Source: Gallionellaceae bacterium (GTDB taxonomy: Bacteria; Pseudomonadota; Gammaproteobacteria; Burkholderiales; Gallionellaceae). Taken from it: a DNA stretch of 9,157 nucleotides. Both the position numbers and the translations under genes were made by a program. Where the stretch lies: NCBI GenBank assembly GCA_030646595.1, contig JAUSKS010000315.1, forward strand, positions 1 through 9,157, in the 5' to 3' direction. Numbering within the stretch: position 1 is the first letter of the stretch; each line of letters opens with the position of its first letter. This document shows positions 1,616 through 8,320 of this stretch, in pieces. The notes under the pieces are model-generated. The model did not search any database. It saw nothing but the letters and a program-made list of their open reading frames with translations, and was not told the origin of the DNA.

Positions 1616-2182
1616 TCATTTTTTCTCCCACGGCGCAAAACCAATAGGCCGTTTTTTCTTGGGGTCGGATGGAGTCATGAGTTCGCGGATGGCTTCAAAA
1701 ACTGCTCTGAACTTGATGTCGTATTTCTTTTCAAGCGCGGCCAGCTTGCCTGAAAGCTCAGCGTTGGAAGCGAGCATCTGCCGTAGCTGCACGAAGGCGC
1801 GTACTACCTGAACGCTGGCCTCTACAGCGCGGGTAGAATTAAGTACACTGGCCGCCATGATGGCTCCATGTTCTGTGAAAGCGTAAGGGAGATGCCTGCG
1901 TCCGCCACGTCCTGCTGAATTGTTTGAGGTCACAATTTGTGACCTCAAACTTGAGGTGCCAATTTGGCATTTCAAATCAGCAAATTCTTCAGCGGTCAGT
2001 TGAAACATAAAGTCTAGCGGAAACCGCTCACTATTCCGTTTGATCGCTTGGTTCAGCACTTTGGTCGGAATGTCGTAGAGTTCCGCCAAATCGGCATCCA
2101 GCATAACCTTCTGCCCACGGATCAAAAATATCTGCGATTCGATTTGCTCCACAGATGCTATCAATGTCTTATTAGTCATCAC
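1616..2182 (-). CDS. ORF6N-domain DNA-binding protein
   Basis: Seen: 188 residues. The first half (about 12-70) has the ORF6N/KilA-N-type pattern [18 protein letters not shown], then [20 protein letters not shown] and QLTAEEF. The family motif [14 protein letters not shown] follows at 93-106, then a helical stretch with a likely coiled coil (about 120-165) and a basic tail (PKKKRP). Known of the family: ORF6N domains occur in phage and mobile-element proteins and probably bind DNA; target and function are mostly unknown. Odd: residues 70-87 are two tandem 9-residue copies, LKCQIGTSS and LRSQIVTSN, whose DNA forms palindromes. Start: GGAG lies 7 nt before the ATG at 2182; the second ATG at 2179 is also possible. 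Downstream of a toxin-antitoxin pair on the same strand, it may share its transcript. Family call firm, role unknown. Confidence 0.88.
1922..1975. repeat. Two tandem 27-bp palindromic units inside the ORF6N gene
   Basis: Units 1922-1948 and 1949-1975 match at 19 of 27 bases and encode 9-residue repeats. One unit with its flanking bases is a perfect 29-bp palindrome: GTTTGAGGTCACAA (1922-1935), T, TTGTGACCTCAAAC (1937-1950). The other is TTGAGGTGCCAA, T, TTGGCATTTCAA (1951-1975), with 10 of 12 arm positions paired. Both keep an inner CAA-T-TTG core. Four inner differences between units (TGCC/GGCA against TCAC/GTGA) are compensated on the opposite arm. Confidence 0.9.
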
Positions 2183-3004: not shown

Positions 3005-3201
3005 CCTAAAAAACGCAGTTGAATTTTTATCCCATGGTGCAAACCCTCTCCCCTAGCCGGCTTTGCCCCCCTCGCTTCGCTCTCCCACAGGGAGAGGGGA
3101 ATAAAGTCCCTCTCCCTCTGGGAGAGGGGTTGGGGTGAGGGAACACCCGTTGCTAGCTTGCCTCAGAGCATAATTATGACCATGCAACTGCGGTTTTTAG
3201 G
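3005..3201. mobile_element. MITE-like element, 197 bp, with terminal inverted repeats and target duplication
   Basis: Seen: the left end CCTAAAAAACGCAGTTG (3005-3021) and the right end CAACTGCGGTTTTTAGG (3185-3201) are inverted repeats matching at 16 of 17 positions. Immediately outside, TTTAT occurs at 3000-3004 and again at 3202-3206, a 5-bp direct duplication of the kind left by DDE transposases. There is no ORF inside, so it would be non-autonomous. The interior holds CCCTCTCCC/GGGAGAGGG hairpins. The right-hand TTTAT includes the stop codon of the truncated EAL gene (TAA, 3203-3205), so insertion fell exactly at the gene end. No transposase is visible in the window. Confidence 0.75.
3044..3141. 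repeat. CCCTCTCCC/GGGAGAGGG hairpin cluster
   Basis: Two hairpins lie side by side inside the MITE-like element: CTCTCCC-ACA-GGGAGAG (3080-3096) and CCCTCTCCC-TCT-GGGAGAGGG (3108-3128, perfect 9-bp arms). The second is followed by GGTTGGGGTGAGGG. An extra CCCTCTCCCC occurs at 3044-3053. The family resembles intergenic repeats common in Beta- and Gammaproteobacteria. On the minus strand the hairpins follow the EAL gene and could slow or end transcription, but there is no T tract directly after the stem. Confidence 0.8.
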
Positions 3202-3206
3202 TTTAT
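3202..3206. repeat. Right copy of the 5-bp target-site duplication
   Basis: TTTAT, directly after the right terminal inverted repeat; it contains the stop codon of the EAL-domain gene on the minus strand. Confidence 0.65.
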
Positions 3207-3514
3207 TGATTACGCAGCACAGTCCCCATTTCGTGGAAGGTTAACGGCTTGCTGTACAGAAAACCCTGTATCTCATCACATTTCAGTTCCCGCAGTAGCG
3301 CGGCCTGCTCTTCTGTTTCCACTCCTTCTGCGATTACCTTGAGGTTGAGTGAATGGCCCAAGGATATGATAGTGGAAACAATGCTTAAATCGTCTGGCTT
3401 GCTGGTCATGTTGGTAATGAAACCCAAATCAATTTTCAGGGTGCTGATGGGCAGCTTGGTCAGATAGCTCAGCGATGAATAACCCGTACCGAAATCATCC
3501 ACTGCCACTTCCAC
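3203..3514 (-). pseudogene. C-terminal part of the EAL domain, frameshifted off its gene
   Basis: Seen: a frame encoding VEVAVDDFGTGYSSL, then LKID, KVIAEGVETEEQ, and DEIQGFLYSKPL before the TAA at 3203-3205. These are the second half of an EAL phosphodiesterase domain: the DDFGTGYS loop, the catalytic lysine, the AEGVE glutamate and the QGF glutamine. It continues the gene ending at 3495 in a different frame. Removing one G from the G6 tract at 3514-3519 joins both parts into one protein of 772 residues. The GTG at 3514 is only an internal codon, and no ribosome-binding site supports independent translation. The frame has kept all its motifs, so the shift is recent, reversible, or a sequencing error. 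Confidence 0.88.
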
Positions 3515-5522
3515 CCCCCATTTCCCTGATCGCTTGCAGCTTGGCTATGCTGGCTTCTACGTCCTGCATGACCATGCTTTCGGTGATTTCAAATTCCAGG
3601 GTGCAGGAATTTTCAGCGCAGTTCAATTCACGTTCCACCATTTCGACGAAATCCTTGTGCTGCAACTGGGTAGCCGACACATTCACCGCAATCAAGGGCG
3701 GTTGTAAGCCTTCTTTATGCCATAGTCGGCAATCTGCCAAAGCCTGCTGCATGGCCCAGCGGCCCACTTCAAAAATCATGCCGGTTTCTTCCAGGATGGG
3801 AATGAAATTTACCGGCAGCACCAGGCCGTTTTCCGGATCATTCCAGCGTATCAGCGCTTCCAGCCCGCTGATGCGCCCGTTCTGCACTTCAATCTTGGGC
3901 TGATAATGCAACTCGAACTGGCCTAACTTGAGGGCGCGGCGCAATTTATTTTCCCGCTTGAGCCGCAGGTTGGCCTTGTCTGTCATCTCGGCGGTACAGA
4001 GCTGAATATTGTTGCGCCCCAGATATTTGGCATGATAGAGCGCAGTGTCTGCGCTTTTAAGCAGCGCTTCACTGCTTTCACCATCCCTGGGTGTAAAGGC
4101 AATGCCTATGCTGCTGGTAATACTCAATTCGTGGTTATCGATCATGAAGGGCGCAGCCATGCGCCTGATTATCTTGTGCGCCATCAACGCTACTGCATCT
4201 TCCGAAATCACATTGACCAGGATGGCGGCAAATTCATCGCCGCTCAGGCGCGCCATGGTATCGCAATCGCGCACACAGGCTGCCAGCCGGGCACCTGCCT
4301 GTTTCAACAGTTGGTCTCCGGCATTGTGGCCCAGGCTGTCATTCACATTTTTGAAATAATCCAGATCAACGTACAGCACGGCCAGCCGACTGCCCAGGCG
4401 CTGGGCATAAGTCAACGCCTGATTGAGCCGGTCCTGAAACAGCACCCGGTTGGCCAGCCCGGTCAACGCATCGTAATAGGCCAGGTAATTCAGCCGCTCG
4501 CCCTTTTCGTTGTATTCCAGCGCAAATGAAACATCGGCTGCCAGTTCAGTCAGCAATTTCATTTCTTCGGTATCAAAAAAACCCACTTCCTGCGCATACA
4601 GCGCCAGCACACCTCTCGCCTGATCTCCCACCATCAATGGAAAAACAGCGGCAGAACGGTAATCACGCTGTAGTGCTTCTTCGCGCCAGGAGGCCATTTG
4701 CGGATTGGTATTAATGTCATTGCATACCGCGGGCATTTTGTCGCGCAATACGCGTACAAACAAGCGGCTGCTGTTATCTTCGGCAGCCTCCTTAAGCGGC
4801 AGCCTGAGTTGATCCAGATAGCCTGCTTCAAAACCGGCTTTGGCAACCGGTATTAAACAGGTGCCTGCCGCATCCGGCCAGCCTATCCAGGCCATGCGGA
4901 ATTGTCCGTGCTGCACCGCAATATTGCATGTTTCGACGAATAATTGCTGGCGGTCGCGAATGCGTATGCTGGCGGTGTTGATGCCGCTCAGCACGGCATA
5001 CAGGCGGTTAAGACGCGTGACCTTGGCCTCTGCTCGGTTACGCTCGGCAACCTCTGCGGTCAATGCTTCTGTGCGCTGCTCCACCAGGGTTTCCAGGTGT
5101 TGCTGCAAATCCTTGAGCGATTCGGTCTGACGATGCAAATCCACAAATACCGCCACCTTGGCGCGCAATACCTCAGGAATGATGGGGGTAAAAATAAAAT
5201 CCACAGCCCCCAGCGAATAGCCTTGCAGCATATCCGATTCTGCCCGCGTATACGCAGTCACAAAAATAATCGGCGTGGTCTCCGACTGCTTACGGCTGCG
5301 TATCAAGGCAGCTGTTTCAAAACCATTCATTTCCGGCATCTGCACATCCAGCAGAATCACTGCATAGTTATGCTGCAATAATAATCGCAGCGCATCGCGG
5401 CCTGATTCCACAGCCACCACATCTTGTCCCGGTTGTTCCAGAACCGAGGTCAATGCCAGCCGTTTGGCAGCATTGTCATCCACGATAAGAATACTGGCTT
5501 TACGATTATTATCTGTCATCAT
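3495..5522 (-). CDS. REC-GAF-GGDEF-EAL response regulator, truncated by frameshift
   Basis: Role: a c-di-GMP turnover protein under phosphorelay and ligand control. Domains seen: receiver at about 10-125 with D15, D16 and phosphoacceptor D59; coiled-coil linker about 130-170; GAF about 175-340; diguanylate cyclase about 345-510 with SGDEF at 427-431 in place of GGDEF and the inhibitory RxxD at 418-421; EAL from about 530 with E555-A-L, N614 and E645. After M668 the frame shifts and ends in GGGSGSG-stop, losing the DDFGTGYS, lysine and AEGVE parts. As written the phosphodiesterase should be inactive, while cyclase activity may remain. The conserved receiver lysine is replaced (FTP at 111-113). 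The ATG at 5522 directly follows the stop of the upstream gene with no gap, so translation is probably coupled. It is a tandem paralogue of that gene with an added GAF domain. Confidence 0.92.
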   Translation of the reverse strand: MMTDNNRKASILIVDDNAAKRLALTSVLEQPGQDVVAVESGRDALRLLLQHNYAVILLDVQMPEMNGFETAALIRSRKQSETTPIIFVTAYTRAESDMLQGYSLGAVDFIFTPIIPEVLRAKVAVFVDLHRQTESLKDLQQHLETLVEQRTEALTAEVAERNRAEAKVTRLNRLYAVLSGINTASIRIRDRQQLFVETCNIAVQHGQFRMAWIGWPDAAGTCLIPVAKAGFEAGYLDQLRLPLKEAAEDNSSRLFVRVLRDKMPAVCNDINTNPQMASWREEALQRDYRSAAVFPLMVGDQARGVLALYAQEVGFFDTEEMKLLTELAADVSFALEYNEKGERLNYLAYYDALTGLANRVLFQDRLNQALTYAQRLGSRLAVLYVDLDYFKNVNDSLGHNAGDQLLKQAGARLAACVRDCDTMARLSGDEFAAILVNVISEDAVALMAHKIIRRMAAPFMIDNHELSITSSIGIAFTPRDGESSEALLKSADTALYHAKYLGRNNIQLCTAEMTDKANLRLKRENKLRRALKLGQFELHYQPKIEVQNGRISGLEALIRWNDPENGLVLPVNFIPILEETGMIFEVGRWAMQQALADCRLWHKEGLQPPLIAVNVSATQLQHKDFVEMVERELNCAENSCTLEFEITESMVMQDVEASIAKLQAIREMGGGSGSG
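3514..3519 (-). other. G6 homopolymer at the frameshift point
   Basis: Six G residues on the minus strand (C on plus) at the codons for MG-VEV. Five G would read ATG GGG GTG GAA and keep the EAL frame; six give ATG GGG GGT GGA and a TGA soon after (3495-3497). Homopolymers of this kind are typical places for replication slippage and for sequencing indels. Confidence 0.9.
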
Positions 5523-8219: not shown

Positions 8220-8272
8220 TTCGTGTGCGATCTCTGTTTTTTCCGATGGCTGCGGCAATAAAATATTTCGCT

Positions 8273-8320
8273 CCCTCACCCCGATCCCTCTCCCGGAGGG
8301 AGAGGGATCGAGGGTGAGGG
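8273..8320. repeat. 48-bp hairpin repeat between the receiver-protein gene and cheR
   Basis: The left arm CCCTCACCC + CGATCCCTCTCCC (8273-8294) and the right arm 8298-8320 pair over 22 bases with one bulged base around the 3-nt loop GGA. It shares the CCCTCTCCC/GGGAGAGGG core with the hairpin at 3108-3128. It sits 28 nt after the stop codon of the upstream gene and ahead of cheR, inside what should be one operon. As RNA it would be a very stable structure and could weaken expression of cheR and later genes. Confidence 0.85.

Follow-up and report, generated by a model that had tools for sequence, protein, structure and literature searches.

Palindromes within the reading frames of ORF6N, RhuM and Bro-N genes as probable cognate operators, and their covariation with the predicted recognition helix in ORF6N and RhuM

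Intragenic operators are exemplified by lac O2 and gal OI, while parS sites lie inside the parB/spo0J gene. The ORF6N-domain gene analysed in this study resembles all three in carrying a palindromic, putative protein-binding site inside coding sequence, and it resembles parS in that the site resides in the protein's own gene; single cases of the latter kind (parS in spo0J) are already known. The arrangement differs from lac O2, gal OI and parS in that the ORF6N-type site occupies one particular loop of the DNA-binding domain across families, can be read in any of three codon phases and covaries with the predicted recognition helix. What is new in comparison with the known intragenic autoregulatory operators is an arrangement that is common to families, frame-independent and co-evolving. 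Palindromic DNA translated in-frame within protein genes is also a property of the Rickettsia palindromic elements, which are larger and dispersed among unrelated genes, and for which we know of no recognition code.

A further likeness is found in the mitochondria of Nematomorpha, whose coding palindromes of up to 284 bp have arms in conserved protein regions and are perfect inverted repeats retained in frame alongside a working protein (PMC6649704, excerpt). In contrast to these, ORF6N-type palindromes measure about 25–31 bp, lie in a predicted disordered loop and are tied to the DNA-reading helix. By their Pfam ORF6N and Bro-N hits, the proteins described here belong to the Bro network of phage and satellite DNA-interactive proteins, which includes ORF6N, Bro-N, KilA-N, AntA and pRha (PMC10111431, excerpt). 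Among the matches listed, an embedded cognate site was not reported for this network, nor did the entries listed from the open-licence PMC literature on palindromes in connection with ORF6N, Bro-N, RhuM or intragenic operators report such an arrangement.

The window, i.e. the whole 9,157-nt stretch of DNA analysed (contig JAUSKS010000315.1 of a Gallionellaceae bacterium, assembly GCA_030646595.1), contains an ORF6N-domain gene (Table 1), assigned to Pfam PF10543 with an E-value of 2.7e-32 and 111.4 bits, above the curated cut-off of 27.8. In the AlphaFold2 model of its product (mean pLDDT 70) helices 29-36 and 40-49 are confident, and by our own reading of the model they would constitute a helix-turn-helix; residues 75-94 form a loop between helix 64-76 and strand 100-102. 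A PDB sequence search gave nothing below E 0.17, and a Foldseek structure search nothing at E 0.001 or better. Direct reading of the sequence confirmed the perfect 29-bp palindrome that had been noted in the original prediction: its arms (1922-1935 and 1937-1950) are 100% complementary with 1 nt between them, and the pairs at ±3, ±4 and ±7 are C:G, A:T and G:C, respectively. Between the two 27-nt units, which translate to LKCQIGTSS and LRSQIVTSN, 8 of 27 bases are different; this count and the linked exchange of TCAC/GTGA for TGCC/GGCA had also been described correctly. Four of the differences make up two linked pair swaps, two account for the mismatched pairs of unit 2 and two fall in the linker. 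At ±4 the second unit has C:G, a class not fitting Gln45.

Table 1. Coordinates of the ORF6N-domain gene, its palindromic units and the predicted DNA-reading residues within the window.
Feature	Position	Strand	Remarks
ORF6N-domain gene, 188 aa	1616..2182	minus	GTG start, ATG at codon 2; ORF list and Pfam PF10543
Perfect 29-bp palindrome GTTTGAGGTCACAATTTGTGACCTCAAAC	1922..1950		encodes LRSQIVTS; proposed cognate binding site
Second, imperfect palindromic unit	1951..1975		encodes LKCQIGTS; mismatched pairs 1955-1971 and 1956-1970
±4 pair, left base A	1932..1932		
±4 pair, right base T	1940..1940		
Predicted helix, codons 41-50	2033..2062	minus	interpreted here as HTH recognition helix; AlphaFold2 helix 40-49, mean pLDDT 90 for residues 41-50
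Gln45 codon	2048..2050	minus	residue tracking the ±4 pair
Arg49 codon	2036..2038	minus	Arg with ±3 C:G, Asn with ±3 A:T
Lys41 codon	2060..2062	minus	Lys with ±7 G:C
Predicted disordered loop, codons 75-94	1901..1960	minus	pLDDT < 50; contains unit 1 and part of unit 2

Palindromes of this type proved to be widespread among ORF6N genes, being present in 225 of 254 distinct genes by a CA...TG criterion and in 238 of 254 when 9 or more of 11 pairs were demanded at any place in the ORF, both fractions leaning high because some of the 254 loci had been fetched by the palindrome pattern itself. In a set fetched by protein (the best 80 of 587 loci, from 20 named phyla plus two unplaced, with no ORF found in 1/80), the best palindrome, with at least 9 of 11 pairs, was situated at the loop in 70 of 79 genes; two more scored 8 at the loop, and seven were placed elsewhere by motif, some of which (e.g. 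L100, L116) are loops that the motif missed, the others lying upstream in the open frame. As a background measure, 1336 control windows of 105 nt around ORF6N genes contained 23 palindromes with at least 10 of 11 pairs. A gene carries from 1 to 3 copies, so the original description of a variable-copy insert holds as a description, and not as anything beyond that; copy number was one of the checks that had been proposed. The palindrome is read in two codon phases (e.g. LRSQIVTS and EVVTNCDHL). A single fixed core, CAANTTG, was considered and dropped, since members without it have palindromes with other cores at the same place, e.g. TCGAAATTTTCGA.

The arms of the ORF6N palindromes are kept pairing by linked, often silent changes. 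This is visible in codon usage among the 114 distinct units (drawn from 171 units in 156 ORFs, 49 ORFs being without the region, and picked by peptide and position). Serine is encoded by TCA in 48 of the 49 units that have T as the partner base (Val in most) and by TCG in 22 of the 23 that have C (Ala or Ser); leucine is encoded by TTG in 91/91 units with partner C and by TTA or CTA in 15/15 with partner T; and the arginine codon is AGG in 53/65 units with partner C (Thr), while AGA is found in 11/13 with partner T (Ile or Met). When the same units were compared with 2000 shuffles preserving the amino acids, five of the six silent third positions paired above all shuffles, the sixth value being reached by 45/2000. 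The covariation of arm positions that had been proposed as a check was found on a tree of 167 genes, where 71 arm changes were matched by the other arm, none was opposite and 21 were unmatched, a tally summed over nine mutually non-independent pairs and representing the commonest outcome of 200 random pairings; one opposite change, at the ±11 pair, appeared in a few of these pairings.

Silent positions are coupled in RhuM genes (PF13310) as well, in which the palindrome is read in the third phase, e.g. SVVRLFRTTAADGK. The locating motif placed 53 of 75 distinct ORFs, and the loop window of every one of the 53 contains 8-11 of 11 pairs (9 or more in 51), compared with 5-9 of 11 in 212 control windows of equal size, where 9 was reached in 7/212. 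All these palindromes are in phase 2, and their distance to the following motif is 15 or 18 codons in 51/53 genes; among the 22 ORFs missed by the motif, the best palindrome has the same loop and phase in 15 and a different placement in 7. In 41 distinct units the two inner pairs joining third codon positions are paired in 41/41 each, beyond all 5000 shuffles, and the next such pair in 39/41, a value attained by 1/5000 shuffles; the outermost (40/41) is uninformative, as all shuffles reached it. Arginine and phenylalanine codons are likewise coupled (CGG-TTC 11, CGA-TTT 6, mixed 0; Fisher p 8e-5).

These data bear on one of the alternatives, according to which the palindrome is a by-product of a conserved peptide. 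That a peptide can spell such a sequence by chance is illustrated by ribosomal protein S15 genes, in which SQIVT gives AGTCACAANTTGTGACC. The codon-conditional shuffles, the silent-silent pairs of RhuM and the occurrence of three codon phases refute this explanation, which we regard as practically untenable. The original view that the DNA itself is maintained is supported on both points that could have refuted it: homologues with the same amino acids hold the pairing through silent changes, as seen in the codon shuffles, the tree and the RhuM third positions, and copy number does vary. A coding sequence is evidently shaped here by a DNA-level function that overrides codon choice and peptide, in loci whose G+C content differs widely (0.37 to 0.73 among a set of genome contigs). 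The genes carrying AGTCACAANTTGTGACC in L135-L138, which we take from their peptide to encode S15, represent a coding coincidence and a useful negative control.

Bro-N genes (PF02498) close to locus L152 contain the palindrome in the same phase as EVVTNCDHL, as SQLVTNCHQLK, and 15 of 18 such ORFs score at least 10, most of the loci in this set having come in via the palindrome pattern. For Bro-N as a whole the case is weaker: in a set of 30 loci obtained by family, the score is 10 or more in 6, 9 in 12 and lower in 12; many of the better-scoring palindromes are at the corresponding loop, as judged by eye. The divergent Bro-N genes of L326-L351 have very different palindromes at the loop before a G(R/K)xQ motif, in part with 9 to 11 of 11 pairs. 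In L153 (1461-3017) a gene encoding a Methylase_S domain (hsdS) bears a Bro-N-type palindrome at its 3' end; some 55 bp further on begins a Bro-N gene, which has an internal palindrome of its own.

The function of the palindrome is suggested by its relation to the encoded protein. For the tree and for the code, peptide and position served to choose the units, which succeeded in 167 of the 254 ORF6N genes; the other 87 were left out, the pattern or the anchors having failed. A scan of ORF6N columns showed that the ±4 pair is linked most strongly to the position of Gln45 of the window protein, with the highest mutual information among the columns and seven pairs tested. Counted on the very genes from which it was read, the code holds in 149 of the 153 scored genes and is broken in 4 (14/167 unscored), the matches comprising Gln with A:T (76), Glu with G:C (38), Arg with C:G (27), Lys with C:G (6) and Leu with T:A (2); in all four mismatching genes another unit of the gene matches. 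Usual amino acid-base contacts are Gln-A, Arg/Lys-G and Glu-C. The ±4 pair is tracking one residue of the predicted recognition helix, in line with these contacts. Similarly, at residue 49 Arg goes with C:G and Asn with A:T in the ±3 pair, and Lys at residue 41 goes with a ±7 pair of G:C. When the helix was left out of tree building, independent pairs agreed in 7/7 cases for ±4 A/G, 8/8 for ±4 A/C and 8/9 for ±7, with none opposed, while ±3 and residue 49 show too few changes for a tree-controlled test; the columns of the putative recognition helix rank at the top of 151. The window gene conforms at all three positions (Gln45/Arg49/Lys41 with A:T/C:G/G:C), as do the two other ORF6N genes found in its genome, with Glu facing TCGCAA and Gln facing TCACAA.

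The code was read in ORF6N and RhuM genes, and it extends across sets and frames. Within the protein-fetched set (best 80 of 587 loci) all 64 of 64 scored genes have a code-matching unit. Among ORF6N genes using the other reading frame, 24 match, 3 mismatch and 5 are unscored, the three code-breaking phase-1 genes belonging to a divergent subfamily with Lys and G:C. For RhuM, the inner half-site was compared with the residue preceding the conserved His of the predicted recognition helix, a residue equated by eye with Gln45 of the window, and the two agree in 50/53 genes (CGG-Glu 16/16, TCC-Lys 11/11, CGA-Tyr 8/9, AAG-Gln 9/11), whereas shuffles gave at most 28. The RhuM tree offers few independent changes: 9 went the same way, none the opposite way and 4 were unmatched over four classes, CGA/Tyr giving 0/2. 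The sole held-out test of the code used RhuM genes of other bacterial families, from which ORFs identical to those of the first set had been removed: it was right in 21/22 genes with Gln, Glu, Arg or Lys, and in 25 of all 29 when Tyr and Leu are included, with 1 wrong and 3 having residues outside the code. Since the encoded amino acids differ by frame while the link between base and helix holds, a protein-protein contact does not explain it.

Thus, a palindromic site is found inside the gene of its presumed binding protein and, as judged by covariation, its sequence class matches the predicted recognition helix. Pairing retained in a translated loop, together with this covariation, makes the palindrome most likely the protein's cognate DNA-binding site. 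The original suggestion of an own binding site carried inside the gene gains support from a pairing base that tracks the putative DNA-reading residue.

Two explanations which dispense with DNA reading have to be set against this. Selection could act on a cruciform, or on a hairpin formed by mRNA or single-stranded DNA, whose sequence is read by no protein; arms that pair whatever their sequence, and units that differ in sequence within one gene, would suit such an element. In an mRNA stem G-U pairs should be tolerated, yet sense G.T combinations number 14 against 48 A.C (167 genes, nine pairs) and 15 against 17 in the 41 RhuM units (14 pairs); sense G.T is not favoured, which argues against an mRNA stem, and an mRNA-hairpin element was rejected on these counts. 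Moreover, a hairpin would not link the ±4 pair to a helix residue that in the window is over 30 codons distant, or produce the same code in three phases, and the held-out helix code speaks against it as well. We consider selection for a hairpin or cruciform very improbable.

The other explanation is template switching at quasi-palindromes, which copies one arm onto the other and so yields pairing without function, and which is able to create and repair hairpins (PMC8794818, excerpt). It predicts no connection between palindrome and helix, yet covariation was found. Nor does it predict a tolerant position inside well-paired flanks, as observed in RhuM, where ±8 is paired in just 26/41 units (7 G.T, 7 A.C), with purine on the left and pyrimidine on the right in 38/41, while ±3 to ±7 and ±9 to ±12 are paired in 39-41 of 41; the arms are not homogenised along their entire length. 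This degenerate ±8 fits better to protein contacts than to a hairpin or template switching. As the source of the pairing, template switching is very improbable, and the templated mechanism of the original prediction is less well supported, although the process may still supply the paired mutations.

We propose that the ORF6N palindrome is a cognate operator written into the reading frame of its own regulator. On the sequence evidence it is likely that a dimer of the protein binds this site and holds down its own expression, the use of the palindrome probably being negative autoregulation. An ORF6N homodimer would place one recognition helix on each half-site, and the outcome of binding might be a roadblock or, in some genes that have another palindrome close to the start codon, looped repression. 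Since the loop that houses the site is predicted to be disordered, the protein would accept any peptide that the operator encodes. Being part of the gene, the operator would accompany it into new hosts, which offers a reason why often-transferred genes would stay self-limiting there.

In a wider sense, it is likely that the phage- and defence-linked superfamily of ORF6N, RhuM and Bro-N proteins writes an operator into a tolerant loop of the DNA-binding domain, in any frame, that operator and recognition helix evolve in lockstep, that DNA specificity can be read from the gene, and that the control site moves with it. DNA targets of regulators are normally not readable from sequence, whereas here the gene seems to record its target. 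If true, the specificity of many unstudied regulators would be readable from their own genes, and a natural protein-DNA recognition code, testable at once, could be extracted from large families by alignment alone.

Binding of the site could also serve another end, such as marking or blocking incoming kindred copies, or the protein could act as an antirepressor or effector. In favour of this, ORF6N, Bro-N and KilA-N are counted among a network of DNA-interactive proteins from phages and satellites (PMC10111431, excerpt), and RhuM has been proposed as a toxin in restriction-modification loci (PMC3710099, excerpt). Against a non-regulatory role, some genes contain a further palindrome that is placed like an operator, close to the start codon and 238-306 bp ahead of the internal copy; such a role is possible and, in our judgement, rather unlikely. 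Start-near palindromes are enriched, with 14 in 236 genes (one of them AT-rich and unlike the rest) as compared with the 23 in 1336 control windows, the upstream windows having 90 centre positions and the controls 105. Five of the 14 match the helix class of their gene, and for 3 of the 9 mismatches the helix had been wrongly read. An upstream palindrome as a general partner of the internal one was dropped, as it is present in a minority of genes.

Autoregulation through a cognate site has to accommodate genes with more than one unit. In genes with at least two palindromes the likeness of arms is 0.65 within a gene and 0.66 between genes; as the arms resemble each other within a gene no better than across genes, an additional unit frequently belongs to a class other than the protein's own. 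This unlikeness first argued against a binding site, and the objection was eased only by the helix code, which picks out one unit. For instance, L201_15 (locus L201) has three palindromes of three ±4 classes, of which one alone matches the helix, while in L254_28 (Gln) neither unit matches the code. In this unit-by-unit reading the pattern misidentified the L215_7 helix, and the second hits in L010, L028 and L085 apparently lie outside the loop. Our guess is that extra units of another class may serve sister regulators.

Tandem 27-nt units in 1 to 3 copies, and palindromes found also outside these genes, recall a mobile palindromic element or recombination target inserted in-frame in the manner of Rickettsia palindromic elements. 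Five of the outside places (L276, L279, L283, L284, L295) read as ORF6N remnants or lie inside one, and the site is confined to one loop and tracks the protein's helix; insertion of a mobile element is therefore very improbable, and the recombination target considered in the original prediction is less well supported. A search for the palindrome outside the gene, also proposed there, located the 25-mer, with up to 3 mismatches, at this one place alone in its own assembly (84% complete), while relatives have some stand-alone copies. Hits of an 81-base query to phages P1/P7 and a Streptomyces phage were discarded, their E-values being near chance.

Decayed ORF6N genes that keep their palindromes occur in L276, L279 and L284, and also in L283 and L295. 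The first three are near restriction or methylase genes (N6_N4_Mtase and Fic in L276, EcoRII in L279, HsdR/HsdM in L284), and the remnants in L276 and L284 also retain a PIGFAPW tail. Stand-alone ORF6N-type palindromes, with no ORF6N piece seen, are located in L280 (3050-3260, near a topoisomerase IB gene), in L277 (3850-3960, a small ORF with three tandem units), in L281 (at 407, near a Fic gene) and in L166 (1501-1536, between the DNA polymerase IV and Sir2 genes of a Sulfurospirillum plasmid).

Other features of the window were noted as well. An EAL-type frame is split at a G/C run at 3495-3520 (ORFs 3495-5522 and 3203-3514), likely by a frameshift or an assembly error. An inverted repeat around TACATGTACA (2916-2963) immediately precedes a two-gene unit whose second gene encodes a PIN-domain protein (2294-2692), and looks like a toxin-antitoxin operator. 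Dispersed inverted repeats of the CCCTCTCCC type are situated in intergenic positions at 3077-3142 and 8272-8313.
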